Shown here piece by piece: positions 115 through 14,553 of a stretch of DNA of 33,936 nucleotides (position 1 is its first letter; every line of letters begins with the position of its first letter). The translations under genes were made by a program, and so were the position numbers. The stretch covers positions 1 through 33,936 of the forward strand of contig JAGXLC010000013.1 of assembly GCA_018334875.1 (NCBI GenBank). The letters are read 5' to 3'. The stretch comes from Bacteroidales bacterium (GTDB lineage: Bacteria; Bacteroidota; Bacteroidia; Bacteroidales; UBA12077). The notes beneath the pieces were generated by a model that saw only the letters and a list, made by a program, of their open reading frames with translations, searched no databases and was not told the origin of the DNA.

Positions 115-254
115 CGGCATACAACATGCGGTAATAAACCATTGGGGTTTAATTGGTTAAACAAATATTCTGTTCCGTTTTAAATTTTTTCACCGGCGGA
201 TAGGAATGCAGCACGCACTCCCCAACGGTTCATACCGCTATACGTTGGGGCGCA
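115..254 (+). repeat. attC-like site 1
   Basis: AAC is at 123-125 and GTT at 244-246. Inner arms are GCGGTA (128-133) and TACCGC (233-238); a second pair, ATTGGGG and CCCCAAC, lies inside them. The left flank C-GGCATAC-AAC fits the rule seen at the other sites (C eleven bases from the end of AAC). It predicts that the off-window cassette begins GTTGTATGCCA or nearly so. The right end GTTGGGGCGCA opens the first complete cassette. Confidence 0.85.
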
Positions 255-290
255 ATATGAAGTAGTAAAGCGTTTAATTAAATTTTTTTT

Positions 291-635
291 ATGAATGATT
301 TACAAATAAATAAAACGGATTTGTATAAAGAATTAGGAATGTCTCAAAGTATTCCAGAAAAGAATTTTCATGAATGGTATAAGACCTATTCAAAAAATTT
401 AAAAAAAATTCAAAAAACAAAAAATGCTATAAAAATTAGAATAATCCTCCTATCAATATTACTTTTTATATTGTCATTCTTCATTGACTCCAATGAGCTG
501 GGACCACAAATATTTCAATTTATATCTTTTATATTAATGGTTGGAATATGGATACTCACGAAACATGAAAGAATACATCCCGAGAAAAAGCTTTTAATTA
601 TGAAAATTTTATTTAAATCCGTTGGAAATTACTAA
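291..635 (+). CDS. Small two-helix membrane protein, cassette 1 gene A
   Basis: This 114-residue protein is not one I recognise. Residues 1-45 are hydrophilic and rich in Lys, Asn and Tyr. Two hydrophobic segments follow at about 49-65 and 72-90, joined by a short polar turn (DSNELGP), and the tail is basic. It has no signal peptide, so an inner-membrane helical hairpin with a long cytoplasmic N-terminus is likely. It lies 13 bases upstream of the next gene in the same cassette and is probably co-transcribed with it. There is no recognisable -7 box or Shine-Dalgarno sequence before the ATG, which follows a T-run. The function is unknown. As a two-gene cassette in a toxin-antitoxin-rich array, a toxin/immunity pair is possible but not shown. 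Confidence 0.75.
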   Translation: MNDLQINKTDLYKELGMSQSIPEKNFHEWYKTYSKNLKKIQKTKNAIKIRIILLSILLFILSFFIDSNELGPQIFQFISFILMVGIWILTKHERIHPEKKLLIMKILFKSVGNY

Positions 636-648
636 CAATTAAAAATTT

Positions 649-1119
649 ATGAAATACTCAAAAGACTTATTGAAAAAAAGGAAAAAATCAAAAGTTAGTA
701 TGGCATTTGGATTATTTGTTATAGTTATAGCGATTACATGGATTCCTCTTCATTTAATAGAAGAAGTCTCAATCTCTGGATTTGACTGGCCTTATATGTT
801 TATTTTTCTTTTAAACGGTCTCTCTCTATTTATGGCCGGTTATGGATATTCACTAGATAGACTTATAGGCAAAGCTTTTATTGAGATTGATAATCAGGTG
901 ATTCGCATAAAAACAGATGTCTTTGATAAAGAAAAAAGTATTAGCTGGGATAAAATAAATTCAATTGATTATAAACCAAGTAAGTTTATTGTATCAAAAA
1001 GAGATAAAACAAAACTTATTTTAACAATTTCAAAACTTGAATATATAGAAATACAAGAAATTAAAAATGTGATTAGAGATATTGCCAACAAGAAAAAAAT
1101 ATCGATAAATTTGAATTGA
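649..1119 (+). CDS. Membrane protein with C-terminal PH-like domain, cassette 1 gene B
   Basis: This 156-residue protein has two transmembrane helices, at about 17-36 and 47-66. A soluble C-terminal half follows (about 75-150) with alternating beta strands such as AFIEIDNQVIRIKTD and WDKINSIDYKPSKFIV, then a final helix. That layout resembles the small bacterial PH-like membrane proteins (bPH/YdbS style), but the assignment rests on pattern only. It follows gene A by 13 bases, forms a two-gene cassette with it, and ends 34 bases before site 2. No catalytic motif is visible. Confidence 0.7.
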   Translation: MKYSKDLLKKRKKSKVSMAFGLFVIVIAITWIPLHLIEEVSISGFDWPYMFIFLLNGLSLFMAGYGYSLDRLIGKAFIEIDNQVIRIKTDVFDKEKSISWDKINSIDYKPSKFIVSKRDKTKLILTISKLEYIEIQEIKNVIRDIANKKKISINLN

Positions 1120-1152
1120 TTAGCAGTTAATGTAATGATTATTAGTGAAATA

Positions 1153-1294
1153 CTGCGCCCAACAGGCTGTAATACGCCATGCGGGCGGGCTTCCAGTTTC
1201 TAAGGAGGTCGGCTTTAGTTGGGTTTTGTATCGGGGGGTGAGAACGCGTCTCCGAAAACCCCGCACGGCGCATACAGCTATACGTTGTGGCTCA
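1153..1294 (+). repeat. attC-like site 2 (subfamily A)
   Basis: AAC is at 1161-1163 and GTT at 1284-1286. The outer left end GCCCAAC is the only perfect RYYYAAC in the set. The left flank TGCGCCCAAC is the reverse complement of this cassette's own start GTTGGGGCGCA apart from one missing base. The central part (GGAGGTCGGCTTTAG to GAACGCGTCT) is shared with sites 6, 9 and 12, defining subfamily A. The right end GTTGTGGCTCA opens cassette 2. Confidence 0.9.
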
Positions 1295-1333
1295 TGGCTA
1301 ATAGACGGAAAGTGAAAGGTTATTTAAAATTTT

Positions 1334-1341
1334 TACCTTTG
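1334..1341 (+). promoter_or_regulatory. Bacteroidota -7 promoter box of cassette 2
   Basis: TACCTTTG matches the Bacteroidota sigma-A -7 consensus TAnnTTTG and lies 14 bases before the DUF4160 start codon. The leader would be only about ten bases long. No clear -33 TTG is seen at the usual spacing. Confidence 0.6.
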
Positions 1342-1355
1342 TAAAAAAAGAATCC

Positions 1356-1661
1356 ATGCCCAAGATATTTGAATATTTAGGAATTCTTATATTTTTTTAC
1401 TCAAATGAACATGAACCCATCCATGTTCATGCTAAGAAAGGAGAATTTGAAAGCAAAGCTGAATTTTATATAATAAACGGGATTATTCAAGAAATAAAGG
1501 TTTCCTCTGTAAAAGGATCAAAACCACTCAAAGGACAAAATCTTAAAGACTTTGAAACGTTTTTAGAAGTGTATGCAGATAAAATTGTAGAAAAGTGGGT
1601 TAATTATTTCGTATACCATAAAGATGTTGAATTTGAGAAAATAACAAAAAGGTTAAAATGA
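1356..1661 (+). CDS. DUF4160-family protein, cassette 2
   Basis: This 101-residue protein has the DUF4160 signature: an N-terminal MPKIFEYLGILIFFYSNEH followed by EPIHVHAKKGE (about residues 22-32), where the His pair is the family hallmark. The C-terminal part is helical. DUF4160 genes are commonly next to DUF2442 genes, and the pair is widely treated as a likely toxin-antitoxin module, though its activity is unsettled. The next gene overlaps its stop by four bases (ATGA), so translation is coupled. The start ATG sits 14 bases after a TACCTTTG box. The protein is of normal family length and looks intact. Confidence 0.85.
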   Translation: MPKIFEYLGILIFFYSNEHEPIHVHAKKGEFESKAEFYIINGIIQEIKVSSVKGSKPLKGQNLKDFETFLEVYADKIVEKWVNYFVYHKDVEFEKITKRLK

Positions 1662-1942
1662 AAATATCAGTTGACTATAAAAAAGAAGAAACCAAGAGCC
1701 TTAAAATTGAAAAGGCAAATTACATTGGTGATTTTGCTATTAGAATTAAGTTTAATGATGGAACTGAAAAACTAGTCGACTTCAAACCTTTCCTAACCAG
1801 GTCGGTGCATCCTTCCATAAGAAAATATCTAGACGAACGGCTTTTCTCAAATTTTAAAATAATCGACGGTAATTTGAATTGGAATGATTATGATATGATT
1901 TTTCCAATTTGGGATTTATATAAAGGAAAAGTCGATAAATAA
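1658..1942 (+). CDS. DUF2442-family protein, cassette 2 partner
   Basis: This 94-residue protein follows the DUF2442 pattern: a beta-rich region YIGDFAIRIKFNDGTEKLVDF (about 22-42), then LFSNFKIIDGNLNWNDYDMIFP and a terminal WDLY. It overlaps the DUF4160 gene in an ATGA junction. DUF2442 proteins are the usual partner of DUF4160 and are assumed to be the antitoxin-like half; that role is family inference. The stop codon is 19 bases before the AAC of site 3, so the gene and the element are tightly packed. Confidence 0.85.
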   Translation: MKISVDYKKEETKSLKIEKANYIGDFAIRIKFNDGTEKLVDFKPFLTRSVHPSIRKYLDERLFSNFKIIDGNLNWNDYDMIFPIWDLYKGKVDK

Positions 1943-1952
1943 AGCCACGCCA

Positions 1953-2091
1953 CAGAGCCACAACATGCTGTATAAACAATTGGGGCTAAATGTCTTGATC
2001 AGGGTAAGTCAAAATAGCAACATCTCTACTTGGGGGATTGGATCCAGGTAGTCCTTCCCCAACTGTTCATACAGCTTTCCGTTGGCAACAA
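1953..2091 (+). repeat. attC-like site 3 (subfamily B)
   Basis: AAC is at 1962-1964 and GTT at 2081-2083. Inner arms are GCTGTAT and ATACAGC; the second arms are AACAATTGGGG and CCCCAACTGTT. The left flank GAGCCACAAC is the reverse complement of the cassette 2 start GTTGTGGCTC. GCCA/TGGC pairing continues outside after an A/C mismatch and one extra base. The centre (GTCAAAATAGCAACAT to GGTAGTCC) is shared with sites 7 and 14. Confidence 0.9.
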
Positions 2092-2160
2092 GGCTCAGTG
2101 GAGACAGGTATTTAAATAAACGACAAAAAATTAAATAACGGAGTTTCTTATTTAAGAAAA

Positions 2161-2191
2161 TTGCAAAAAACTTAAATAGTGACTATCTTTG
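2161..2191 (+). promoter_or_regulatory. Bacteroidota promoter of the fic cassette
   Basis: TTG at 2161-2163 and TATCTTTG at 2184-2191 are separated by 20 bases, a textbook -33/-7 pair for Bacteroidota sigma-A. The fic start ATG is 13 bases further on. The cassette therefore carries its own promoter. Confidence 0.75.
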
Positions 2192-2204
2192 TTTAAAAAT
2201 TCTA

Positions 2205-3329
2205 ATGAAAAATTACAAATCCGGTCAATATATCAATCAGGGATACTATAAAAGTTTCCAACCAACTTCGATAAATAAACAATTGCATATCGATGATATG
2301 GAGGTAATGCAATTGCTTAGTCAGGCAGATAGAGAATTGGGCAGGCTTGATATGTATTCAAAATATATTCCCAATATTGATTTGTTTATTAGCATGCATG
2401 TTGTAAAGGAAGCAACCCAAAGTAGCAAGATTGAGGGAACACAGACAAATTTGGATGAAGCCCTTTTAGACAAAGAAGATATCCCTATTGATAAGAGAGA
2501 TGATTGGGAGGAAGTGCAAAATTATATTAGTGCACTGGAATGGGCCATAAAGGAGTTAAATGAATTACCCTTCTCTTCCAGATTGATAAAAGAAACACAT
2601 AGAGTACTTTTACAGGGAGTTCGTGGAGAGAAAAAACAACCCGGCGAATTCCGAACGAGCCAAAATTGGATTGGTGGGACAACGCTAAACGATGCAACAT
2701 TTATTCCACCTGTTCATGCATCTGTGCCTGAATTGATGAGTGACATAGAAAAATTCATTCATAATAATGAGATATTTGTGCCCGAGTTATTAAAGATTGG
2801 ACTTGTTCATTATCAGTTTGAAACGATTCACCCATTTTTAGACGGGAACGGAAGAATAGGAAGATTATTAATACCACTTTATTTAGTAAGCAAAGGGATA
2901 TTACAAAAACCGATTTTGTATTTATCGGAATTTTTTGAAAAAAATCGGCAGTTATATTATGATAATTTGATGATTGTAAGAAAGAAAAGCAATCTTTCAC
3001 AGTGGTTTAAGTTTTTCCTTATTGGAATAATTGAGACATCAAAAAATGGAATAAAGACATTTGATAATATATTAAAATTACAGAAGCAGGTTGAATCGGA
3101 GATACAGAGATTAGGAAGTAGAGTAACTAAAGCAAAAAAAGTAATTGATTATTTATATCAACGACCGATTATAGATGCAGAAAAAGTTAGTGAAGTAGCC
3201 GAAATATCGATGCCTTCTTCGTATAAACTGATTACAGATTTAGAGAAAATGGATATATTGAAAGAGGTAACTGGTGGAAAGAGAGGGCGAACTTATGTAT
3301 TTGAAAATTATTTAAGATTGTTTAGATAA
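2205..3329 (+). CDS. Fic family protein (AMPylase-type), cassette 3
   Basis: This 374-residue class II Fic protein has the inhibitory helix motif SSKIEG at about 73-78 (the Glu blocks the ATP gamma-phosphate site) and the catalytic loop HPFLDGNGR at about 209-217, with the catalytic His and the Asp/Asn/Arg set complete. A winged-helix-like region follows at about 310-370 (KVIDYLYQRPIIDAEKVSEVAEIS). Enzymes of this family transfer AMP from ATP to a Ser, Thr or Tyr of a target protein; the target here is unknown. It is the only gene of its cassette and, being self-inhibited, needs no separate antitoxin. It is of full family length and intact. Confidence 0.92.
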   Translation: MKNYKSGQYINQGYYKSFQPTSINKQLHIDDMEVMQLLSQADRELGRLDMYSKYIPNIDLFISMHVVKEATQSSKIEGTQTNLDEALLDKEDIPIDKRDDWEEVQNYISALEWAIKELNELPFSSRLIKETHRVLLQGVRGEKKQPGEFRTSQNWIGGTTLNDATFIPPVHASVPELMSDIEKFIHNNEIFVPELLKIGLVHYQFETIHPFLDGNGRIGRLLIPLYLVSKGILQKPILYLSEFFEKNRQLYYDNLMIVRKKSNLSQWFKFFLIGIIETSKNGIKTFDNILKLQKQVESEIQRLGSRVTKAKKVIDYLYQRPIIDAEKVSEVAEISMPSSYKLITDLEKMDILKEVTGGKRGRTYVFENYLRLFR

Positions 3330-3340
3330 GAAAAATCGCC

Positions 3341-3478
3341 CAGTTGCCAACACGCGGTATAAAAAATTGCCGAAACAGTAGGTTATTCAAGGGTTGTAGC
3401 CCGCTTCAACTTTTGTGTAACTTGACAGGAAATCGCCTGCAATCGGCAACTTTTCATACCGCAAACCGTTAGCAACAA
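3341..3478 (+). repeat. attC-like site 4 (GCGG/CCGC arm variant)
   Basis: AAC is at 3349-3351 and GTT at 3468-3470. The inner arms are GCGGTAT and ATACCGC instead of GCTGTAT and ATACAGC, so both arms changed together. The second arms are ATTGCCG and CGGCAAC, again co-varied. The left flank GTTGCCAAC is the exact reverse complement of the cassette 3 start GTTGGCAAC. The central sequence differs from subfamilies A-C. Confidence 0.88.
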
Positions 3479-3495
3479 ATTAAAAACAAAATGTT

Positions 3496-3891
3496 ATGAA
3501 AAATTTAATGACTATAGTTTTAATGATTATTCCGTTGACAATTTTCGCTCAAACTGAAAATTTAGAAGGAAAATGGATTTCTGAATCAGAAACAACTGAC
3601 GGAGAGATAATCGCGTATGAATTCTTTAATAATAAAACACTCAAAATGTTCTTTGATGGGAAGGAATTGCCGACTGTAAAACCGATTGAATATAAACTGG
3701 TGAATAATAATGACCGGACGGAAATTGAAATTGAATATGTAAGTACCTGGAATAGTTCGACTGAGAAAATGTATGGATTAATCGAATTTTTGAAAGACGG
3801 AAAAATTAAAATGGAATTTTTCCCTTTTGACGAACAAGTTGATAAGAAAAATGATTTTTCCGATGAAGCATTAATATTTAGACGGGAATAA
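3496..3891 (+). CDS. Secreted or periplasmic small protein, cassette 4
   Basis: This 131-residue protein has an N-terminal signal peptide (MKNLMTIVLMIIPLTIFAQ, cleavage likely after AQ), so it is exported. The mature part is beta-rich and acidic: LEGKWISESETTDGE, then FFNNKTLKMFFDG and a terminal LIFRRE. This resembles the lipocalin-like 'how much does it weigh against the control' small domains (LEGKW start) of Bacteroidota, but I cannot name the family. It is the only gene in a short 558-base cassette. Its ATG is 28 bases after the GTT of site 4, with no visible promoter box. An exported solitary cassette product contrasts with the cytoplasmic toxin-antitoxin genes around it. Confidence 0.75.
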   Translation: MKNLMTIVLMIIPLTIFAQTENLEGKWISESETTDGEIIAYEFFNNKTLKMFFDGKELPTVKPIEYKLVNNNDRTEIEIEYVSTWNSSTEKMYGLIEFLKDGKIKMEFFPFDEQVDKKNDFSDEALIFRRE

Positions 3892-3894
3892 AAT

Positions 3895-4036
3895 CTGTTG
3901 CTAACACGCGGTCATAAAACATTGGGGGGCGAGGTGATTATTCGAGCCTCGGTTCTCGCATCAAGGGCTGTTGTATCTTGATAGTGAAGTAGCTCCGAAA
4001 TCCCCAACGTTTCATACCGCCAACCGTTATACGCCA
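3895..4036 (+). repeat. attC-like site 5 (GCGG/CCGC arm variant)
   Basis: AAC is at 3903-3905 and GTT at 4026-4028. Inner arms are GCGGT and ACCGC; second arms are ATTGGGG and CCCCAACG. The left flank CTGTTGCTAAC is the reverse complement of the cassette 4 start GTTAGCAACAA except for C opposite A at position 11, and TAA/ATT-type pairing continues outside. The right end GTTATACGCCA opens cassette 5. Confidence 0.88.
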
Positions 4037-4107
4037 TCTCCTTTAAAGAACATAATGTTGCAATTAATAGAGTAATAAATATATAAAAATAAGAAAGGCA
4101 GTTTGCT

Positions 4108-4956
4108 ATGAATGTTTCACAATTACCCCAAGATCAATTTACACATATTGATTTTGTTAACACACGTTATTGGACAATTGGTGATAATGAGACTCCTTTA
4201 ATATTGGTTCATGGATTGGGAGGATATGCAGAAAATTGGATGTACAATGTTTCAGTTCTTGCTAAACATTTTAAAATTTATGTATTAGATCTGGTTGGAT
4301 TTGGTAAAAGTGATAAACCTGAAGCCCTATATACATATGATTATTTTGCTAGGTTTGTGCACGATTTCATGGAAAAGATGCACATTGAGAAAGCCCACTT
4401 GATTGGTCATTCACTAGGTGGAGGTATTGTATTGCAATTTGCGCTTAAATATCCTGAAAAAGTAAAAAAACTTGTTATTGTAGCAAGTTCGGGTTTAGGA
4501 AAAAAGGCTTCCATGATTCACAGAATAACATCCCTTCCAATCATAGGTAAATACTTAACGAAACCTAGCCAAAAAGGAATATCTAGGCTCTACGAATCAA
4601 TGGTATATAACAAGGAAGTAATAACAGAAGAAATGGTTGAATTAGGTTATCAAATGTTTGCATTACCGGGGGCTCAGAAAGTATATTTATCAACTACCCG
4701 GGCAGCAATTAATTTTTTCGGACAGAAACAAAAAGCAATCAATCCAATCAGGCACAACCTTCAACTTATTGAATCTCCAGTGATGGTTATATGGGGTCAA
4801 CAGGATAAGATTCTCCCTTTATCACATGCATATATAGCGAAGAAACAAATTAAAAACGTTATCCCTCATCTTTTCGATCAGTGTGGTCATCTGCCAATGG
4901 TAGAACATCCGGAAGAATTTAATATTTCCGTTGATCAATTTTTGGTTAATCAATAA
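4108..4956 (+). CDS. Alpha/beta-hydrolase, cassette 5
   Basis: This 282-residue alpha/beta-hydrolase fold enzyme has an oxyanion-hole motif HGLGG (about 35-39), nucleophile elbow GHSLGG with Ser102, acid WGQQDK with Asp233 and catalytic His261 in CGHLPMVEHP. A cap domain of about 130-220 residues separates the halves. It has no signal peptide, so it is cytoplasmic. Close relatives include esterases and C-C bond (MhpC-like) hydrolases; the substrate cannot be told from sequence. It is the only metabolic-looking enzyme besides the MBL protein in the array and the sole gene of its cassette. A weak purine stretch (AAGAAAGG) precedes the ATG. Confidence 0.9.
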   Translation: MNVSQLPQDQFTHIDFVNTRYWTIGDNETPLILVHGLGGYAENWMYNVSVLAKHFKIYVLDLVGFGKSDKPEALYTYDYFARFVHDFMEKMHIEKAHLIGHSLGGGIVLQFALKYPEKVKKLVIVASSGLGKKASMIHRITSLPIIGKYLTKPSQKGISRLYESMVYNKEVITEEMVELGYQMFALPGAQKVYLSTTRAAINFFGQKQKAINPIRHNLQLIESPVMVIWGQQDKILPLSHAYIAKKQIKNVIPHLFDQCGHLPMVEHPEEFNISVDQFLVNQ

Positions 4957-4980
4957 AAAATATGATATTATGATCAATTA

Positions 4981-5123
4981 CGGACGTATAACAGGCTATA
5001 TACAAAATGCTGGCATTCGTCATGAAGTCTACGTTTGGTGGCTTTAGCAAAATTTCGTATCGGGGGATGAGAACGCGTCTTCGAAAACCCCGCACGGCGC
5101 ATACAGCTTTCCGTTATAGGTAA
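4981..5123 (+). repeat. attC-like site 6 (subfamily A, imperfect left arm)
   Basis: AAC is at 4990-4992 and GTT at 5113-5115. The left arm GCTATAT pairs imperfectly with ATACAGC, so this site has partly decayed on the left. The right half (GGGGGATGAGAACGCGTCTT onward) is almost identical to sites 2 and 9. The left flank CGTATAAC matches the cassette 5 start GTTATACG. The right end GTTATAGGTAA opens cassette 6. Confidence 0.85.
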
Positions 5124-5163
5124 TGCTAAGAAGGGTTAATTACGGTAATTTGTATGAATTGAT

Positions 5164-5171
5164 TATCTTTG
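5164..5171 (+). promoter_or_regulatory. -7 box of the zeta-toxin cassette
   Basis: TATCTTTG fits TAnnTTTG. The possible TTG start codon at 5169 lies inside this box. The true start is therefore most likely ATG 5187, giving a leader of about ten bases. Confidence 0.65.
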
Positions 5172-5186
5172 AGAAAAAGACAATTA

Positions 5187-5768
5187 ATGCCAAATTTATA
5201 TGTGATAGCAGGTTGTAACGGTGCTGGGAAAACAACGGCTTCCTATACTGTATTGCCAGAAATATTAGATTGTGAAGAATTTATAAATGCAGACGAAATA
5301 GCCAGGGGCCTTTCTCCGTTTAATCCAGAGAAAGCTGCTATAGAGGCAGGTCGTATAATGCTGAAGAAGATAAGTGATTTTATAAAAAGGAATTATGATT
5401 TTGCTTTTGAGACAACTCTAGCATCGAAAAATTATTTAAAAACCATTGATAGAGCTAAGAACAACGGATACGAAATTACTTTACTGTTTTTTTGGTTAGA
5501 TTCAGTAGAATTAGCGGTTGAAAGAGTTAAATCACGTGTTGCAGAAGGCGGACGCAATATTCCTGAAAAAGTCATTAGAAGGAGATATTTCTCTGGCATA
5601 AAAAACTTATTTGAATTATATATACCTGTTTGTGATTATTGGATGATTACAGATAATTCTAATCCTAATTTAAGATTAGTTGCGGAAGGAACACAAAAAG
5701 AAATAATTAAAATTGAAGATAATTCTATTTTTAATTTAATGAAAAGATTAAGCCATGGCCAAAAGTAA
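5187..5768 (+). CDS. Zeta-toxin-family P-loop kinase, cassette 6
   Basis: This 193-residue P-loop kinase of the zeta-toxin/AAA_33 type has Walker A GCNGAGKTT at about residues 9-17 near the N-terminus. It also has a substrate-side segment NADEIARGLSPFNPEKAA and the later VKSRVAEGGRNIPEKVIRRRY, typical of the family's Arg-rich lid. Known zeta toxins phosphorylate UDP-N-acetylglucosamine and block wall synthesis; whether this one does is inference. ATG 5187 is chosen over an in-frame TTG at 5169 because that TTG lies in the -7 promoter box. The 3' end overlaps a small downstream ORF by 14 bases. Confidence 0.85.
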   Translation: MPNLYVIAGCNGAGKTTASYTVLPEILDCEEFINADEIARGLSPFNPEKAAIEAGRIMLKKISDFIKRNYDFAFETTLASKNYLKTIDRAKNNGYEITLLFFWLDSVELAVERVKSRVAEGGRNIPEKVIRRRYFSGIKNLFELYIPVCDYWMITDNSNPNLRLVAEGTQKEIIKIEDNSIFNLMKRLSHGQK

Positions 5769-5916
5769 TATAACTAAGAGGGAAAAACTGATCAAAGGGC
5801 TTGAATTATATTATCAGAAATTGATAAAAAATAAGATAGCCACTAATTCAGATTTAGTAGTTTCAGAAAATGGAAAGGTTGTACATATAGATCCCAAAAA
5901 ATATCAAAAAAAATAG
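5755..5916 (+). CDS. 53-residue partner ORF overlapping the zeta toxin
   Basis: This small basic protein starts MAKSNITKREKL and ends in KKYQKK. Its ATG lies inside the zeta-toxin gene, 14 bases overlapping, in another frame, so translation is coupled. It ends 10 bases before the AAC of site 7, at the normal distance for a cassette gene. Sequence features are an N-terminal amphipathic helix (ELYYQKLIKNKI) and a short beta-like tail (GKVVHIDPKKY). I do not recognise a family. The position suggests an antitoxin, although classic epsilon antitoxins precede the zeta gene and are larger. It is intact. Confidence 0.7.
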   Translation: MAKSNITKREKLIKGLELYYQKLIKNKIATNSDLVVSENGKVVHIDPKKYQKK

Positions 5917-5918
5917 CA

Positions 5919-6055
5919 CTACCTATAACATGCTGTGTAAACAATTGGGGTTGAGTAGCTTGTCCGATTCAGATCAAAATAGCAATATTTCTACCCGGGG
6001 ATAGGACTCAGTTAGTCCTTCCCCAACTGTTCATACAGCTTTCCGTTGTGCCCAA
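5919..6055 (+). repeat. attC-like site 7 (subfamily B)
   Basis: AAC is at 5927-5929 and GTT at 6045-6047. Inner arms are GCTGTGT and ATACAGC; second arms are AACAATTGGGG and CCCCAACTGTT. The left flank TAGCACTACCTATAAC pairs with the cassette 6 start GTTATAGGTAATGCTA for 15 of 16 positions, the only mismatch being C against A at position 11. The centre matches sites 3 and 14. Confidence 0.92.
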
Positions 6056-6067
6056 TTGGTAAGAAGA

Positions 6068-6098
6068 TTGGAAAATGCCTCAGAATTGATTAATTTTG
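6068..6098 (+). promoter_or_regulatory. Bacteroidota promoter of MNT/HEPN cassette 7
   Basis: TTG at 6068-6070 and TAATTTTG at 6091-6098 are 20 bases apart, matching the -33/-7 consensus. The start codon follows four bases after the box, so the mRNA would be leaderless or nearly so. Confidence 0.7.
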
Positions 6099-6102
6099 AA
6101 GT

Positions 6103-6420
6103 ATGGCAACAGATAAGGAAATACTGGAAATGATTAAAAAATCGGTGAAATCCAAAGCCTCCAATGCAATTGTTATTTTATATGGATCCAGGGCAAGAGG
6201 AGATAACCGTGCTGATTCAGATGTTGATATATTGATCCTGCTTGATCAAAAAAGAATATCAAGGGAAGATGAAAAGCGTGTAAAGTACCCCCTTTATGAT
6301 ATCGAATTCGAGACTGGAAAAATAATCAGTCCTTTGGTTCTTACAAAATCAGATTGGGAATCTCGCCATAGAATCACTCCTTTCTACGATCGAGTAAATG
6401 AAGAGGGAGTTGTACTATGA
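6103..6420 (+). CDS. MNT-type nucleotidyltransferase antitoxin, cassette 7
   Basis: This 105-residue minimal nucleotidyltransferase has the GSX10DXD signature: Gly28-Ser29, then Asp40 and Asp42, in YGSRARGDNRADSDVDILIL. In the characterised MNT/HEPN systems the MNT protein is an antitoxin that adds AMP to the HEPN toxin and silences it. The pairing here, with a four-base ATGA overlap to a HEPN gene, fits that role. It is of normal length and has all metal-binding acidic residues visible. Confidence 0.88.
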   Translation: MATDKEILEMIKKSVKSKASNAIVILYGSRARGDNRADSDVDILILLDQKRISREDEKRVKYPLYDIEFETGKIISPLVLTKSDWESRHRITPFYDRVNEEGVVL

Positions 6421-6809
6421 ATGAACAGGAAAGGAAAGAACTTGTCCAATATCGCATCAACAGAGCAAAAGATACCCTTAAAGAAGTAAACATTCATGTT
6501 GAGAATGAACTCTGGAGTACTGCCGTTAATCGATTATATTATGCTTGCTATTACGCAGTAAGTGCTCTATTGCTACAACATAAAATTAAAGCTCAAACTC
6601 ATGCAGGGGTTCGGCGGATGTTCGGGTTACATTTTGTCAAAAAGGGTTTAATAGACAAAGATCTAGCTCGATTTTATACTGATATTTTTGATAAGAGGCA
6701 AACAAGCGATTATGATGATTTTATAGAATTTTCCCGCGAAGAAGTTGTTAGCCTGATACCCTCCGCAGAACAGTTAATTGAAGAAATAGAAAAATTACTT
6801 GTTGATTAA
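6417..6809 (+). CDS. HEPN-domain protein, cassette 7 toxin
   Basis: This 130-residue helical HEPN-domain protein has the typical NRLYYACYYAVSALL helix (about 38-52) and the segment FDKRQTSDYDDF (about 91-102). In this HEPN branch R-x4-Y takes the place of the RX4H motif (Arg94, Tyr99). HEPN partners of MNT proteins are usually RNases or tRNA-targeting toxins. It is coupled to the MNT gene by overlap and ends 38 bases before the AAC of site 8. It is intact and belongs to a different HEPN branch from those in cassettes 10 and 12. Confidence 0.85.
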   Translation: MNEQERKELVQYRINRAKDTLKEVNIHVENELWSTAVNRLYYACYYAVSALLLQHKIKAQTHAGVRRMFGLHFVKKGLIDKDLARFYTDIFDKRQTSDYDDFIEFSREEVVSLIPSAEQLIEEIEKLLVD

Positions 6810-6839
6810 CTTCTAATCCCCCAAAAATAAAAATCCAAC

Positions 6840-6979
6840 TGGGCACAACATGCTGTATGCACCATGCGGGCGTATTTACAGAAGATTCAGCATTCGAATT
6901 TAGCAAAAATATTTACCAAGGCAATAGATCATACTTCTTTCATCCAGCACGGTACATACAGCTATACGTTGTGCGGCAT
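6840..6979 (+). repeat. attC-like site 8 (subfamily C)
   Basis: AAC is at 6848-6850 and GTT at 6969-6971. Inner arms are GCTGTAT and ATACAGC; second arms are CATGCGGGC and a degraded CCAGCACGG. The left flank CCAACTGGGCACAAC is the reverse complement of the cassette 7 start GTTGTGCCCAATTGG except C opposite A at position 11. The centre (TTTAGCAAAAATATTTACCA, GGCAATAGATCATACT) is shared with sites 10 and 11. Confidence 0.9.
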
Positions 6980-7047
6980 GCTATGGCTGCTGATAGGATT
7001 TATATGGTTTATTTATTCTTAATAGATTAGAGCAAATAATAATAAAA

Positions 7048-7053
7048 AAGGAG
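7048..7053 (+). promoter_or_regulatory. Shine-Dalgarno sequence of the MBL gene
   Basis: AAGGAG lies five bases before the ATG at 7059. This is notable because nearly all other genes here start without a Shine-Dalgarno sequence, as is usual in Bacteroidota. It may mean the MBL cassette came from a lineage that uses SD initiation. Confidence 0.55.
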
Positions 7054-7058
7054 TAAAT

Positions 7059-7931
7059 ATGAAAGCAAAAATATTAAACCTGTTCAGTAATGTGACATTA
7101 ACCAATACGAAACTTAAGGGTGGTCATGGACAAAGTTTTCTGATTAATATTGGCGAAGAAAAAATACTCTATGATACAGGATTAAATAGCGAAACTCTAT
7201 TAAACAATATGAAAACTTTATCCATATCTCCTGATGAAATTACGAAGCTAATTTTGTCACACGGTCATATTGATCATACAGGAGGTTTGCAAGGATTTCT
7301 TGACAAAAGAATTACAAATCAAACTTTAACTTTGATTGCGCACCCTGCCTTTCGTGAAAAAAAAATATATAAGATTTTAGGTCTTATAAAAAAATCAATT
7401 ACCTGCCCTGCCTTAACAGATAGCCAGGAAAATAAATTGGAGATGCTATTAACGATGGACCCTGTACAAATCACTCATAATTTACAAACAACAGGTGAAA
7501 TAGCAGAAAGAAATGAAAAATACGGCTTGGAGCCCAATGCATTTCATCTTGAAAATGGTAAATATGTTGTCGATCCTGTGAAAGATGATTTAAGCCTTAT
7601 TTTAAGTACTGAAAAAGGCGAAGTTATTATAACCGGTTGTGCACACAGCGGAATATTGAATATCTGTGATTACGTAAGGAGAAAAACTAATAATAAGATA
7701 CATGCTGTTATTGGCGGCACACATATGGTGCGTTACTCAGAGGATGAGGTTAAATATGTTGCTACCAGGTTAAAAAGTGAGTATAATAATCCTGATCTCT
7801 ATCTTAACCATTGTACTGATTATTTCCCGGATCCTTTTGTTAAAAAAACAAAAGCAACAGATATATTAAGAAAAGAATTAGGACCAGATAAGATTAAAGA
7901 CTGTTTTGTAGGAACAGTGATCGAATTTTAA
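7059..7931 (+). CDS. Metallo-beta-lactamase-fold hydrolase, cassette 8
   Basis: This 290-residue MBL-fold protein has the metal-binding motif HGHIDH (His68, His70, Asp72, His73), a later GCAHSG with His196, VIGGTHM with His222, and LNHC with His251. The GCAHSG/IGGTH pair is typical of the branch annotated as dihydropteridine- or methanopterin-synthesis-like MBL hydrolases. The substrate is unknown. The N-terminal LKGGHGQSFLINIGEEKILYD is the usual first sheet. It has no signal peptide. It is the sole gene in its cassette, with an unusual good Shine-Dalgarno sequence and a long 3' tail of about 140 bases before site 9. Confidence 0.88.
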   Translation: MKAKILNLFSNVTLTNTKLKGGHGQSFLINIGEEKILYDTGLNSETLLNNMKTLSISPDEITKLILSHGHIDHTGGLQGFLDKRITNQTLTLIAHPAFREKKIYKILGLIKKSITCPALTDSQENKLEMLLTMDPVQITHNLQTTGEIAERNEKYGLEPNAFHLENGKYVVDPVKDDLSLILSTEKGEVIITGCAHSGILNICDYVRRKTNNKIHAVIGGTHMVRYSEDEVKYVATRLKSEYNNPDLYLNHCTDYFPDPFVKKTKATDILRKELGPDKIKDCFVGTVIEF

Positions 7932-8063
7932 CTTTATATAATTTTTAGGTTATAGAATGAAACTCTTGACTTAATTAAATTTAAACATGGAGAAACTTTG
8001 AATAATTAAAAAGGTTAAAGAATGCAGTATTTTGTTAATGAGCATCGTTTTAATAATACTTTA

Positions 8064-8209
8064 GCAAGACCGCACAACATGCTGTAATACGCCATTTGGG
8101 CAGGCTTCCAGCGTCTAAGGAGGTCGGCTTTAGCTGGGTTTTGTAACGGGGGATGAGAACGCGTCTTCGAAAATCCCGCACGGTGCATACAGCTATACGT
8201 TGTAGGTAA
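8064..8209 (+). repeat. attC-like site 9 (subfamily A)
   Basis: AAC is at 8076-8078 and GTT at 8199-8201. Inner arms are GCTGTA and TACAGC. The left flank CCGCACAAC is the reverse complement of the cassette 8 start GTTGTGCGG. TAGC/GCTA pairing continues outside but needs a shift, and this is the one site without C near position 11. The centre is nearly identical to site 2. Confidence 0.9.
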
Positions 8210-8252
8210 TTGAATAAACACGCCAACTGTTTCCCAATAAGGAAATTTTTCT

Positions 8253-8260
8253 TAACTTTG
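8253..8260 (+). promoter_or_regulatory. -7 box of cassette 9
   Basis: TAACTTTG fits TAnnTTTG and lies 11 bases before the start of the broken toxin gene. Confidence 0.6.
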
Positions 8261-8271
8261 TAGAAAAAAGG

Positions 8272-8619
8272 ATGGTAAAACATGAGGTTCAATTTATGGA
8301 ACCTGCATAGGATTTCTTAGATGATTTAGATGATAAAACTAGAGAAAAGGTAATATTTAACATTTGGAAATCACGGGAAACAAATGATCCAGAATTATTT
8401 AAGAAGTTAACAGATGAAATCTGGGAATTTAGAACTAGATATAAGGGTAAACAAATTAGGCTTCTTGCCTTTTGGGATAAAATTAAATACACAAAAACCC
8501 TTGTCATTGCAACCCATGGATTTCAGAAAAAGGCTCATAAAGTTCCAAAGAAGCAAATCGATAGGGCAATAGAGCTACGTAAATTGTATTATGAACAAAA
8601 AAGCAGCAGAGATGGATAA
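8272..8619 (+). pseudogene. Gp49/RelE-type toxin gene interrupted by TAG at codon 13
   Basis: Read through, this frame gives 115 codons of a phage-derived Gp49-like (HigB/RelE superfamily) toxin: MVKHEVQFMEPA, stop, then DFLDDLDDKTREKVIFNIW and WEFRTRYKGKQIRLLAFWDK. The family expects Lys or a similar residue at the TAG (8308-8310), and AAG to TAG is one substitution. No ATG follows the stop, so no useful restart is evident. The rest of the frame is intact and overlaps the antitoxin gene by 29 bases, so the damage looks recent. Amber readthrough cannot be excluded, but TAG is a normal stop elsewhere in the window. Confidence 0.8.
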
Positions 8620-8938
8620 GAAAAAGATGAAAACATACACCCTGGAGGAACTTACTGATCAATATGTTGGGAAAAAGGGAACCGCCAGACGAGATAAATT
8701 TGAATTTGATCTTAAGCTTGATATTTTGGGTAATATGATAAAAAAAGCCCGGAAAGAGCAGAATTTAACCCAGGAGCAACTTGGTCGTTTAGTTGGTGTA
8801 CAAAAGGCTCAGATATCCAAAATAGAAAATAATGCGAAAGATGTAAGATTTTCCACTGTAATGAAAGTATTTGAAGCCTTAAAGGCAAAAGTTAAAATGA
8901 CCATTGAATTTGATTCTAATTCTCATATAGAAATCTAA
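8591..8938 (+). CDS. XRE-family antitoxin, cassette 9
   Basis: This 115-residue protein has a lysine-rich N-terminus and an XRE helix-turn-helix at about 46-100 (MIKKARKEQNLTQEQLGRLV, then QKAQISKIENNAKDVRFSTV). Toxin-first order with an XRE antitoxin is standard for Gp49/HigB modules; such antitoxins also repress their own promoter. The gene is intact although the upstream toxin has a nonsense codon. Its start overlaps the toxin reading frame by 29 bases. It ends 22 bases before the AAC of site 10. Confidence 0.88.
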   Translation: MNKKAAEMDKKKMKTYTLEELTDQYVGKKGTARRDKFEFDLKLDILGNMIKKARKEQNLTQEQLGRLVGVQKAQISKIENNAKDVRFSTVMKVFEALKAKVKMTIEFDSNSHIEI

Positions 8939-8951
8939 GGATAATATTCAA

Positions 8952-9090
8952 CTACCTACAACATGCTGTATAAACATGCGGTCGGGCTTCCAGCAGATTC
9001 TGTCTCCAAGTTTGACAAAATTTTTTACCAGGGCAAAAGTTCATACCTTTTCATCCCGCACAGATTCATACAGCTTTCCGTTGCCGCCAA
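8952..9090 (+). repeat. attC-like site 10 (subfamily C)
   Basis: AAC is at 8960-8962 and GTT at 9080-9082. The left flank ATTCAACTACCTACAAC pairs with the cassette 9 start GTTGTAGGTAATTGAAT at 16 of 17 positions, the single mismatch being C against A at position 11. This is the longest clean case. Inner arms are GCTGTAT and ATACAGC. Confidence 0.92.
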
Positions 9091-9126
9091 TATTAAAATA
9101 GCTTAGCTGTATTCCAGTGAATTCAT

Positions 9127-9134
9127 TATATTTG
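9127..9134 (+). promoter_or_regulatory. -7 box of MNT/HEPN cassette 10
   Basis: TATATTTG fits TAnnTTTG and lies five bases before the MNT start codon, implying a very short leader. Confidence 0.6.
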
Positions 9135-9139
9135 TCTTT

Positions 9140-9430
9140 ATGCAAACTCAAGATTTCATAGAAAAGAAATTGAAGGAATTAAAACCTTATCTTGCTGAGA
9201 AGTTCTATGTCAATAAGATAGGGTACTTCGGGTCGTATTCTCAAAATAAGCAAAATGAAGAATCCGACATTGATATATTGGTTGAATTTAGCAGACCTAT
9301 TGGATGGGAATTTTTTGACTTGAAAGATCTTCTTGAGAAGGAACTTAAAACAAAAGTTGATTTAGTTTCCGTTGGTGCTCTTCGGAAACAATTAAAGAAA
9401 TCCATTTTGAGCCAAACTCATTATGTATGA
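9140..9430 (+). CDS. MNT-type nucleotidyltransferase antitoxin, cassette 10
   Basis: This 96-residue protein has GSX10DXD (Gly31-Ser32, Asp43, Asp45) in FGSYSQNKQNEESDIDIL. The tail LRKQLKKSILSQTHYV is typical of MNT proteins that pair with DUF86 HEPN toxins. It overlaps the HEPN gene by four bases (ATGA). Known MNT antitoxins AMPylate a Tyr in the HEPN RX4HXY motif, and that motif is present in the partner. It is intact and clearly related to the MNT of cassette 12, less so to that of cassette 7. Confidence 0.9.
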   Translation: MQTQDFIEKKLKELKPYLAEKFYVNKIGYFGSYSQNKQNEESDIDILVEFSRPIGWEFFDLKDLLEKELKTKVDLVSVGALRKQLKKSILSQTHYV

Positions 9431-9777
9431 GCAAAACGGGAAGAAATTATAAGATATATTTGGAGGATATCTTAACCTCGATGTTAAGAATCGTAGAATA
9501 TATTGGAGATAGGAACTTTGAGGAATTTAAAAATAATAATATGGTTGTAGATGCTGTTGTGAGAAATTTTGAAATCATTGGCGAGGCATCAAACAATTTA
9601 CCAGATGAAATAAAAGATAAATATCCTGAAATCCCCTGGCGTAAGATGTATGGACTGAGAAATCTTGTATCTCATGAATATTCTGGGATTGATTACGAAA
9701 TGATATGGGAGATTGCCAAGAAAAACCTACCTGAAAATATAGAAGACTTCCGAAAGATAATTGAGAAAGAAAAATAA
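9427..9777 (+). CDS. hepT-like: DUF86/HepT-like HEPN toxin, cassette 10
   Basis: This 116-residue helical protein contains the RX4HXY motif of HepT-type RNases: Arg78, His83 and Tyr85 in LRNLVSHEYSGIDYEMIW. Upstream are the usual DAVVRNFEIIGEA and WRKMYGLRN segments. The family members tested are tRNA- or mRNA-directed toxins controlled by AMPylation of the Tyr. Its ATG overlaps the MNT stop. It ends 10 bases before the AAC of site 11. All motif residues are present, so it should be active. Confidence 0.9.
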   Translation: MSKTGRNYKIYLEDILTSMLRIVEYIGDRNFEEFKNNNMVVDAVVRNFEIIGEASNNLPDEIKDKYPEIPWRKMYGLRNLVSHEYSGIDYEMIWEIAKKNLPENIEDFRKIIEKEK

Positions 9778-9779
9778 TA

Positions 9780-9919
9780 CTGGCGGTAACATGCTGTATG
9801 TACTATGCGGGCGGGCTTGCAGACGATTAGGCAGTCAAATTCAGCAAAAATTTTTACCAGGGCAATAGGTCATACTTTTTACATCCCGCACGGCGCATAC
9901 AGCTATACGTTGTGGTTCA
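9780..9919 (+). repeat. attC-like site 11 (subfamily C)
   Basis: AAC is at 9788-9790 and GTT at 9909-9911. The left flank AATACTGGCGGTAAC pairs with the cassette 10 start GTTGCCGCCAATATT except for C against A at position 11 and one wobble at position 4. Inner arms are GCTGTAT and ATACAGC; second arms are ATGCGGGC and CCCGCAC. Confidence 0.92.
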
Positions 9920-9945
9920 TTTATAAGAGAGACTACAGAGAATCT

Positions 9946-9975
9946 TGCAAAGTTAAAATAAATTGCTTATCTTTG
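9946..9975 (+). promoter_or_regulatory. Bacteroidota promoter of the higBA cassette
   Basis: TTG at 9946-9948 and TATCTTTG at 9968-9975 are 19 bases apart, a good -33/-7 pair. The higB start ATG is 24 bases beyond the box. Confidence 0.7.
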
Positions 9976-9999
9976 GCGTTAGTAACGTAATATGAAAGC

Positions 10000-10284
10000 A
10001 TGATTGTTTCATTTGGCTCAAAGGATACAGAAAAAATCTGGCAAGGAGAAAGAGTTAAGAAGATTCCATTGGAAATTCAAAAAGTTGGCAGACGAAAATT
10101 AAGAATGTTGAATAATTCCCAGAACCTGTCTGATTTGAGAATTCCACCATCAAATAGATTAGAAAGGCTCAAAGGAAAAGAAAAAGGTTACTATAGCATA
10201 CGGATTAATGACCAATGGCGAATAGTTTTTAAATGGGAAAACAATCATGCCCATGAAGTCGAGACTACTGATTATCATAAATGA
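10000..10284 (+). CDS. higB: HigB-type RelE-family toxin, cassette 11
   Basis: This 94-residue HigB-family toxin carries the family landmarks: MIVSFGSKDTEKIW at the N-terminus, the central DLRIPPSNRLERLKG, YYSIRINDQWRIVFKW and a terminal VETTDYH. HigB proteins cut mRNA on the ribosome. An ATG at 9992 is out of frame and meets a stop at once, so ATG 10000 is the start. It is followed after 12 bases by higA in the usual toxin-first order. It is intact; a decayed second copy lies at 14,098. Confidence 0.92.
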   Translation: MIVSFGSKDTEKIWQGERVKKIPLEIQKVGRRKLRMLNNSQNLSDLRIPPSNRLERLKGKEKGYYSIRINDQWRIVFKWENNHAHEVETTDYHK

Positions 10285-10296
10285 AATCCATAAAAG

Positions 10297-10602
10297 ATGA
10301 GTAAATTACCCAATGTACACCCAGGAGAAGTTTTAGTTGAGGAATTCCTTAAGCCAATGGATATTAGTGCCTATAGATTGTCCAAGGAAATAGGAATACC
10401 CCAAACAAGAATTTCTCAGATAATTAAAGGTAAACGTCGTATCACTGCTGATACAGCATTAAGGTTAAGTGCTTTCTTTGGAAATACCCCAAAATTCTGG
10501 CTTGGTCTTCAGGATGACTATGACCTTGAAGAAGAATCCCACCGTAATAATGATTCCCTGAAAAGAATTAGGGATAATCGTACTCAAAAGACCGAAAAAT
10601 AA
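10297..10602 (+). CDS. higA: HigA antitoxin, cassette 11
   Basis: This 101-residue HigA has the signature HPGEVLVEEFLKPMDISAYRL (about 8-28), an XRE HTH with QTRISQIIKGKRRITADTAL (about 36-55) and FFGNTPKFWLGLQ at about 61-72. It neutralises HigB and represses the operon promoter in known systems. It ends two bases before the left flank of site 12. Two further copies, one intact and one broken, lie at 14,247 and 18,063 outside the compact array. Confidence 0.93.
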   Translation: MSKLPNVHPGEVLVEEFLKPMDISAYRLSKEIGIPQTRISQIIKGKRRITADTALRLSAFFGNTPKFWLGLQDDYDLEEESHRNNDSLKRIRDNRTQKTEK

Positions 10603-10603
10603 A

Positions 10604-10747
10604 CGAACCACAACATGCTGTAATACACCATGCGGGCGTTTCGGCTTGATGTCTAAATTTTGTGGCTCAAGCCAGGTTTTGTATCGGGCGTCAAAAACAC
10701 GTCTTCTAAAATCCCGCACGGTGCATACAGCTTTCCGTTGTGGGTAA
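10604..10747 (+). repeat. attC-like site 12 (subfamily A)
   Basis: AAC is at 10612-10614 and GTT at 10737-10739; at 128 bp it is the longest copy. The left flank ATAAACGAACCACAAC pairs with the cassette 11 start GTTGTGGTTCATTTAT except for C against A at position 11. Inner arms are GCTGTA and TACAGC; second arms are CATGCGGGC and CCCGCACGG. Confidence 0.92.
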
Positions 10748-10793
10748 TGGTAACAAGAGGTCAAGTGATGGTGGTAAAATCTCAAAATAATTG

Positions 10794-10801
10794 TATATTT
10801 G
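10794..10801 (+). promoter_or_regulatory. -7 box of MNT/HEPN cassette 12
   Basis: TATATTTG fits TAnnTTTG. A possible TTG start at 10799 lies inside it, so translation more likely starts at ATG 10808 or 10817. Confidence 0.6.
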
Positions 10802-10807
10802 GATAAA

Positions 10808-11116
10808 ATGACGGTTATGAAAGACTCTTCACAAATACTTGCATACTTGTCAAAGAACAAGTACCGATTGATGAAAAAATATCATCTCACCAAGCTAGGA
10901 GTTTTTGGGTCAGTTGTGAGGGGGGATCAAACTGATGATAGCGATATTGATCTAATTGTTGAATTCGACGATAACGTGAAGGATTTATATTTGGTGAAGA
11001 AACAATTAAGGGAAGAGATTAAGAAGCATTTTAACAGACCGGTTGATATATGCCGAGAAAAGTATATAAAGACCAGAATTAAGGACCATATCCTATCCCA
11101 GGCCCGATATGTATAA
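10808..11116 (+). CDS. MNT-type nucleotidyltransferase antitoxin, cassette 12
   Basis: This protein has 102 residues from ATG 10808 (99 from ATG 10817). GSX10DXD is complete: Gly34-Ser35, Asp46 and Asp48 in FGSVVRGDQTDDSDIDLI. The C-terminal RIKDHILSQARYV matches the equivalent tail of the cassette 10 MNT, placing both in the same branch. It overlaps the following HEPN gene by eight bases. A role as an AMPylating antitoxin is inferred from this pairing. Confidence 0.88.
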   Translation: MTVMKDSSQILAYLSKNKYRLMKKYHLTKLGVFGSVVRGDQTDDSDIDLIVEFDDNVKDLYLVKKQLREEIKKHFNRPVDICREKYIKTRIKDHILSQARYV

Positions 11117-11456
11117 AATGTCCCATAAAGATTTTGCCAGCGTTGTTTCCATTCTTGATTCGATTGAAAAGATAATGGATTACACTTCCTCATTTAATAA
11201 TGCTGATGAATTTTATGCGGATACAAAGACTTTTGATGCAGCCATGATGAATTTCATTGTTATTGGTGAAATGGCCGACAAACTCTCCGAGGAGATAAAA
11301 GATGAAACTAAAAACCAAGTTGATTGGGGCAAAGTAATAGGATTCCGAAACATTATTGCCCACAATTATTTTGGAATAGATGCAGAAGAAGTCTGGCAAA
11401 TAATTCAAACAAGCCTTTCTAACCTACAAGAAACATTGCGAGATTACGTGGATTAA
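11109..11456 (+). CDS. hepT-like: DUF86/HepT-like HEPN toxin, cassette 12
   Basis: This 115-residue HEPN protein has RX4HXY at Arg80, His85 and Tyr87 (FRNIIAHNYFGIDAEEVW), preceded by FDAAMMNFIVIGEMADKL. It is the same layout as the cassette 10 toxin but diverged, so these look like two independently acquired alleles rather than a fresh duplication. It is probably translated by coupling from the overlapping MNT gene; an alternative ATG at 11118 would shorten it by three residues. It is intact. Confidence 0.88.
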   Translation: MYKMSHKDFASVVSILDSIEKIMDYTSSFNNADEFYADTKTFDAAMMNFIVIGEMADKLSEEIKDETKNQVDWGKVIGFRNIIAHNYFGIDAEEVWQIIQTSLSNLQETLRDYVD

Positions 11457-11476
11457 TTTAAGGTCCAAAAATGCCA

Positions 11477-11616
11477 CAACCCACAATATGCTGTAAACCC
11501 CATGGGGGCAATGAGTCAAATGTAATGATAATCAATCGATTTTATAGAATACCAGCCCAAAGGGGTGTTGCCTCGCACAACCCCGCACGGCGCATACAGC
11601 TGACCGTTAGCGGTTA
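11477..11616 (+). repeat. attC-like site 13 (left AAC changed to AAT)
   Basis: The left terminal triplet is AAT (11485-11487) instead of AAC; GTT is at 11606-11608. The left flank ACCCACAA still pairs with the cassette 12 start GTTGTGGGT, with C against A at position 11 and CCA/TGG outside. Inner arms are GCTGTA and TACAGC. The centre is unlike subfamilies A-C, and the spacer before GTT is TGACC. Confidence 0.85.
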
Positions 11617-11653
11617 TTGCCCAAAGAGTCCAACAAAAGTTTTAAAAATTCGT

Positions 11654-11661
11654 TATATTTG
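11654..11661 (+). promoter_or_regulatory. -7 box of the vapBC cassette
   Basis: TATATTTG fits TAnnTTTG and lies 20 bases before the vapB start. A purine-rich AAGGAAGGG stretch near 11671-11679 may help ribosome binding. Confidence 0.6.
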
Positions 11662-11681
11662 TTAGAAATAAGGAAGGGATT

Positions 11682-11918
11682 ATGGGATTCAAGACAATTA
11701 ACATAAAGAATAAAAAGGGATTTCAAGCCATTCGAATCCCAAAACAGATGAAAATAGATGATGACAAGGTTTACCTTAAAAAAATAGGTAATGCTCTCTA
11801 CATTATACCTTATCATAAGCCTTGGCAAAATCTGTTCGACAGCCTCGAGTCATTTACGTCTGACTTCATGGATGAAAGGAAACAGCCAGAAGATCAACCA
11901 AGAGAATCTCTCGATTAA
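11682..11918 (+). CDS. vapB: AbrB-type VapB antitoxin, cassette 13
   Basis: This 78-residue protein has an N-terminal SpoVT/AbrB swapped-hairpin DNA-binding domain (INIKNKKGFQAIRIPKQMKI, then DDKVYLKKIGNALYIIP, about 6-43). An acidic helical tail follows (NLFDSLESFTSDFMDERKQP) that would bind the toxin. Its stop TAA shares a base with the ATG of the downstream vapC frame, the usual vapBC coupling. The gene is intact while the toxin frame carries a nonsense codon. Confidence 0.88.
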   Translation: MGFKTINIKNKKGFQAIRIPKQMKIDDDKVYLKKIGNALYIIPYHKPWQNLFDSLESFTSDFMDERKQPEDQPRESLD

Positions 11919-12319: not shown

Positions 12320-12328
12320 AAAAAGCAA

Positions 12329-12467
12329 CAAACCGCTAACATGCTGTATAAACGATTGGTGTGTAGTTAGTTATGCTGAAACTGTCAATATACCAATATT
12401 TCTAACCGGGGAATGGGCTCCAGGTAGTCCGTCCTCAACTGTTCCTAAGGCTTTCCGGTGTAGCCAA
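12329..12467 (+). repeat. attC-like site 14 with degenerate right half (subfamily B)
   Basis: The left half is normal: AAC 12338-12340, GCTGTAT, and flank GCAACAAACCGCTAAC, which pairs with the cassette 13 start GTTAGCGGTTATTGC allowing one extra base. The right half is damaged: CCTAAGGC replaces CATACAGC and GGT replaces GTT at 12457-12459. The centre matches sites 3 and 7. Such a site would probably not recombine on its right, and it marks the end of the compact array. Confidence 0.8.
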
Positions 12468-14232: not shown

Positions 14233-14246
14233 GAAATCCATAGAAA

Positions 14247-14552: not shown

Positions 14553-14553
14553 A

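Follow-up and report, generated by a model that had tools for sequence, protein, structure and literature searches.

Which enzyme moves the cassettes of an array whose sites look like integron attC sites, in a genome where no integron integrase (IntI) scores over its cut-off? The question is raised by the start of contig C13 (JAGXLC010000013.1) of a Bacteroidales bacterium (GCA_018334875.1), a stretch of 33,936 nucleotides that we call the window, in a host genome of 4.7 Mb and 533 contigs. The plus strand of the window carries 14 attC-like sites at 123-12460, the last of them decayed, and a remnant at 14.5 kb besides. An initial annotation had described hairpins at 123-4028 and had proposed that selection acts on their fold, as it does on attC sites; the hairpins are real, and the family reaches beyond that interval to site 14 and the remnant. 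We propose, with a probability of about 0.8, that this is a chromosomal integron-like cassette array with a dedicated non-canonical tyrosine recombinase acting on the folded bottom strand. The sites would thus work like integron attC, yet by the IntI criterion the system is not a canonical integron.

The hairpin stems covary

In each site a left RYYYAAC-like box and a right GTT box flank a hairpin whose middle varies; as in integrons, these imperfect palindromes with AAC/GTT boxes stand in tandem between co-directional cassettes. In the inner arms, sites 1, 4 and 5 carry GCGGT facing ACCGC and most others GCTGT facing ACAGC, while the second arms fall into the paired classes ATTGGGG/CCCCAA, ATTGCCG/CGGCAA and CATGCGGG/CCCGCACG, all as first annotated. 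Counted over the first 13 window copies, the stem pairs comprise 241 Watson-Crick pairs, 29 bottom-strand G·T, 6 top-strand G·T and 9 others. The five copies by themselves are weak evidence for covariation. A covariance model built from the window sites was used to search the host genome and 59 relatives, and matched about 30 places in the host, some of them outside the main array, and sites in 43 of the 59 relatives, the named records with sites including Draconibacterium, Marivirga, Zobellia, Labilibaculum, Lutibacter, Algoriphagus and Polaribacter.

The 150 matches in named loci and the window sites were thinned to 102 non-redundant sites (<85% identity), aligned with MAFFT blind to structure, and scored by a G-test with average-product correction against a phylogenetic null of 60 simulations that redistributed the substitutions of the tree over the columns. 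Fifteen column pairs were significant at E<0.05; 13 lie exactly on the stem diagonal of the hairpin (E 3e-12 to 0.026), and the other two are one-off neighbours of it. Pairing is kept by compensatory change, as in integron attC sites. The initial annotation had tied its claim of selection on the fold to significant covariation in a large alignment, and this highly significant signal, obtained from a structure-blind alignment, supports it. The copy number in the host and the copies outside the main array would also suit dispersed non-coding repeats unrelated to recombination; with the linkage to a recombinase gene and the cassette logic described below against it, we regard this as the least probable explanation of all.

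The bottom strand is probably the one that folds

At two positions of the stem the top strand nearly always has A·C, and the bottom strand accordingly G·T (125 and 142 of the 150 sites); the whole set holds 299 bottom-strand G·T cells against 17 on the top. When the arms only, connected through an artificial loop, were folded as DNA, a comparison of strands that the initial annotation had also suggested, the bottom strand folded better in 12 of 13 window sites (p=5e-4) and in 138 of 144 related sites (p=4e-24). Whole window sites gave a weaker preference for the same strand (10/13, p=0.046). The bottom-strand preference typical of integrons is seen here in folding energy and G·T polarity. In classical attC sites a conserved extrahelical G in the L box sets strand choice and is absolutely conserved (PMC2727003). 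No such conserved G was found in the 13 window sites, where the inner arm has one extra base (at column 21) in five and none in eight; conserved G·T pairs are present instead.

Because the conserved A·C mismatches would be present in a sense transcript, these data argue that the folded form is the bottom DNA strand rather than RNA. The hairpins are palindromic and follow genes closely on the 3' side, as would be true of terminators or attenuators acting on those genes. It is nonetheless very improbable that they are transcript structures: mismatches in the sense transcript read as G·T on the bottom DNA strand, an Rfam scan of the sites gave no family above its threshold, and both the complementarity of the cassette ends and the interspecies cassette boundaries would be left unexplained.

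The two ends of each cassette match

A cassette runs from the right box of site k to the left box of site k+1, and these two boxes are its ends. Read outward from GTT, the inverted repeat that they form spans 8-10 nt in 10 of 13 cassettes and 6 nt in one, and is broken at the first bases in two. Beyond GTT the mean match was 5.1 nt for the ends of the same cassette, 1.0 within one site and 0.5 (0.47) between different cassettes, and the sum for own-cassette ends was reached by none of 20,000 permutations. On inspection, roughly half of the cassettes show a break at base 11, where A stands against G (a bottom-strand G·T), after which the match resumes. In all 12 comparisons the bottom-strand hairpin was more stable in the circle form than in the array form (12/12). 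Such inverted repeats would be expected of circular cassettes that undergo recombination at the GTT box. Together with a cassette boundary exactly shared between species (see below), this complementarity shows that the sites delimit mobile cassettes. The cassettes are co-directional and many carry toxin-antitoxin genes; with its MNT/HEPN pairs, HigBA, Fic, zeta toxin, DUF4160/DUF2442 and PIN, the cargo resembles that of sedentary integrons.

Among the cassettes of other loci, about 365 bp ending at GTT are 88-96% identical between cassettes with unrelated genes (L085 2583-2945; L129 7434-7797; also L148, L152, L171 and L162). The shared stretch begins near the stop codon, so that genes seem joined to a common tail, which may be relevant to cassette formation. 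Viral contigs of IMG/VR (L312, L315 and L235) also hold dense arrays of these sites; in some of these arrays the cassettes are near 300 bp and genes run against the orientation of the sites. In L235, an insertion-less recombinase adjoins tandem genes that resemble methyltransferases.

A recombinase without the IntI insertion heads many related arrays

No IntI over the NCBIfam cut-off (TIGR02249) was found in the host genome, and among the 59 relatives there was one only, in G031, truncated before the catalytic tyrosine region. An additional domain is treated as a defining trait of IntI in PMC9668308, and no IntI-family integrase with that domain was found for this array. In six contiguous genomes a tyrosine recombinase stands at the head of the array, and such array-head recombinases were found in dozens of genomes. 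They score 194-220 bits against TIGR02249, whose cut-off is 265, and in the alignment they keep the catalytic residues and have no IntI-specific insertion. In about twenty loci the gene is upstream of the first site and co-directional with it; most further examples in named loci and relatives share this orientation, with L175 and L211 as exceptions. A shorter subtype, found in Zobellia among others and likewise insertion-less, is divergent and adjoins the array in 8 of 8 loci. In the host, a fragment at the edge of contig C448 is 47% identical to the recombinase of L053, which itself heads an array.

Two neighbouring observations concern other recombinase genes. In L332 (5993-7297) the recombinase is broken by a stop, beside intact sites. 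Host contig C435 (L008, 160-2311) has an IS91-like transposase with its own tyrosine recombinase directly beside an attC-like site; this gene was considered as the integrase and rejected, being part of the IS91-like element.

Sites and recombinase occur together. The recombinase was detected in 23 of the 43 relatives with sites and in none of the 16 without (p=7e-5). In a sample of 392 genomes from the phylum, the association of the sites is with the insertion-less recombinase (odds ratio 7.9, p=3e-17) and not with IntI (odds ratio 0.70, p=0.18). These results bear on whether the window holds an ordinary CALIN (cluster of attC sites lacking integron integrase), a relict moved formerly, or in trans, by a canonical IntI. 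CALINs are common, many of our sites occur without any recombinase, no IntI passes the cut-off in the host, and site 14 and the remnant are decayed, as a relict would be. We nevertheless find a CALIN of this kind improbable. The sites track the insertion-less recombinase rather than IntI, and that recombinase heads the array in many genomes; of the phylum sample, 107 genomes have IntI and a single one of them belongs to the class of the host, in which all 46 site-bearing genomes lack IntI. No such sites were found within the 9-12 kb scanned at six IntI loci. In G354, a genome with both systems, sites are present at the insertion-less recombinase only.

A second alternative concerns ancestry only and is compatible with the mechanism that we propose: the recombinase may be an early-branching or insertion-losing relative of IntI, which would make these arrays a deep branch of the true integrons. 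The same GTT/AAC boxes, hairpin sites and layout of attI plus array point that way, as do a core 35% identical to IntI over 278 columns and a predicted model whose match to IntI (2a3v) is about as good as its match to archaeal XerA. On the other hand, a tree built from the core common to both groups unites the eight IntI in one clade (Shimodaira-Hasegawa-like approximate likelihood ratio test 100) with no array recombinase inside; the deeper branching between the two groups is poorly resolved. We give this ancestry slightly less than an even chance.

Most array-head recombinases begin with one to three copies of a domain of 60-70 residues that, in the fetched loci, was found only on these proteins; L221 and L334 are without it. 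AlphaFold2 predicts with confidence a beta-beta-alpha-beta-beta-alpha-beta fold. Its top Foldseek match, the HARP substrate-recognition domain of SMARCAL1 (4o66), is below significance at E 0.09, as is the comparison with the archaeal XPB N-terminal domain (Z 6.3, rmsd (root-mean-square deviation) 2.0 over 56 residues). The Z scores of the HARP/XPB comparison are 6.3 and 3.8, with no match at E<0.001, and values under 8 may reflect a common arrangement alone. The models are thus suggestive of a HARP/XPB-like module, and our hypothesis is that it senses distorted DNA and so replaces the I2 helix of IntI. The shorter subtype has neither the N-terminal module nor I2.

The entry site and the traffic of cassettes

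In the relatives, the region beside the recombinase gene ends at the first GTT. In one group, the interval between the recombinase stop and this GTT holds repeated palindromic ACAATTTGT-like motifs and ends TATAAACAA|GTT; we consider this interval a candidate attI. Two genera have the same first cassette at this place. A cassette of 1771 nt encoding an ABC-F ribosomal-protection-like protein is present with one difference (99.9% identical) in Draconibacterium (L172 4912-6682) and Marivirga (L173 777-2547), in both in first position after the recombinase and starting exactly at GTTAGCTGC. Such a near-identical cassette in two genera suggests recent traffic between species. Its start was searched in 295 genomes of the class and gave no further near-identical copy; on plasmids, only relatives of about 75% identity were found (Empedobacter plasmids).

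From these data we infer the following cycle, in which single-strand cleavage, circle intermediates and catalysis by the array recombinase are the steps deduced rather than seen. A cassette would transiently be a circle. Where the bottom strand became single, the site would fold into a hairpin, whose stem would be longer in the circle because the two ends of the cassette form an inverted repeat of about 10 nt or more. The two conserved bottom-strand G·T pairs would bias folding to one strand, a task of the extrahelical bases in classical attC. At the GTT box, the dedicated tyrosine recombinase would cleave the folded bottom strand and would join it to the attI-like site beside the recombinase gene, placing the newest cassette at the array head.

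Several points weigh against this reading. The window opens at a contig edge inside the array, so its own recombinase and attI are not seen attached, and the host recombinase fragment sits on another contig, of 3 kb, with no physical link to the window array. In 20 of the 43 site-bearing relatives no recombinase was detected, many, not all, of these being fragmented or incomplete assemblies. The association tests ignore the kinship of the genomes, the window itself supplied the seed of the covariance model, and the phylum sample was scored with 8 candidates per genome only. Without the two conserved columns the G·T bias falls to 32 against 15 (p=0.019). The Draconibacterium copy of the ABC-F cassette extends to the left box instead of GTT, and its attC body differs from that of Marivirga, so this pair does not show a whole classical unit moving.

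A mobile unit generally lacking the attC body was considered and dropped as a rule, a Paludibacteraceae contig matching Marivirga through the attC body up to GTT. Whole cassettes may therefore be transferred and attC bodies may also be exchanged secondarily, as the ABC-F pair differs beyond the left box and the third genome has the Marivirga body.

Features of the window

The sites and cassettes are listed in the table. Downstream of the array, 14109-14552 holds a second HigBA-like copy, partly degraded and kin to the cassette genes at 10000-10602. The DUF805b RNA motif (RF02914) was matched at 13603-13635 with 44.7 bits (gathering score 35.6).

Table. attC-like sites and cassettes of the window, in order of position
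Feature	Position	Strand	Description
Site 1	123..246	+	AAC..GTT; GCGGTA/TACCGC variant
Cassette 1	245..1163	+	two small open reading frames (ORFs; 291-635 and 649-1119, the latter without Pfam match)
Site 2	1161..1286	+	
Cassette 2	1285..1964	+	DUF4160 + DUF2442 gene pair (1356-1942)
Site 3	1962..2083	+	
Cassette 3	2082..3351	+	Fic/DOC protein (2205-3329)
Site 4	3349..3470	+	GCGGT variant; second arm ATTGCCG/CGGCAA
Cassette 4	3469..3905	+	small protein, signal-like N-terminus (3496-3891), no Pfam match
Site 5	3903..4028	+	GCGGT variant
Cassette 5	4027..4992	+	alpha/beta hydrolase (4108-4956)
Site 6	4990..5115	+	several mismatches
Cassette 6	5114..5929	+	zeta-toxin-like kinase (5169-5768) + small ORF
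Site 7	5927..6047	+	
Cassette 7	6046..6849	+	MNT/HEPN toxin-antitoxin pair (6103-6809)
Site 8	6847..6970	+	
Cassette 8	6969..8078	+	metallo-beta-lactamase-fold protein (7059-7931)
Site 9	8076..8201	+	
Cassette 9	8200..8962	+	helix-turn-helix regulator (8591-8938); RelE-like frame upstream, by eye
Site 10	8960..9082	+	
Cassette 10	9081..9790	+	MNT/HepT pair (9140-9777)
Site 11	9788..9911	+	
Cassette 11	9910..10614	+	HigB/HigA toxin-antitoxin pair (10000-10602)
Site 12	10612..10739	+	
Cassette 12	10738..11487	+	MNT/HepT pair (10799-11456)
Site 13	11485..11608	+	
Cassette 13	11607..12340	+	small ORF + PIN-domain frame (11682-12319)
Site 14	12338..12460	+	right arm decayed (CCTAAGGC..CGGTG)
Remnant	about 14546..14688	+	attC-like, left-truncated, downstream of array

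Relation to known systems

Large surveys found few integrons in the Bacteroidetes, at first integrases without cassettes only and later one complete integron, in Salinibacter (PMC9024848). The open literature that we searched, with most subscription papers and all preprints outside its scope, held no description of the pairing of such arrays with this recombinase. Our data point to a gene-capture system widespread in Bacteroidota; if the arrays are active, a major capture system of the phylum has been overlooked because searches require IntI. We see about even odds for the broader proposal that capture throughout the phylum proceeds by hairpin-site recombination without the I2 insertion, many lineages having N-terminal structure-sensing modules and G·T-marked sites instead. 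If this is true, either integron-like capture originated here independently, or a stage of integron evolution older than I2 has survived. According to PMC7790495, the innovation by which an integrase came to act on single-stranded sites was the I2 helix; I2-less recombinases heading arrays of covarying hairpins make that claim testable.

The array resembles sedentary chromosomal integrons in its terminal AAC/GTT boxes, its imperfect palindromes with a variable middle and their bottom-strand folding bias, as well as in its head-to-tail co-directional cassettes rich in toxin-antitoxin genes and in having, in relatives, a recombinase beside a candidate attI-like site. It differs from integrons in that there is no IntI with the additional domain, two conserved G·T pairs replace the conserved extrahelical G, the spacers are unequal (2 nt versus 5 nt), the ends of the same cassette are often complementary over 10 nt or longer, and the recombinase is usually co-directional with the array. 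Like a CALIN, this contig, which starts inside the array, has an attC-like array without a nearby IntI; unlike CALINs, the related arrays are headed by a dedicated, different recombinase. That recombinase shares with the simple tyrosine recombinases XerC, XerD and XerA core-binding and catalytic domains without the IntI insertion, but it is tied to hairpin cassette arrays, and most of the head set have N-terminal modules absent from the Xer proteins compared. The best structural matches of the predicted module are the HARP domain of SMARCAL1 and the N-terminal domain of XPB, with no significant relation in sequence.

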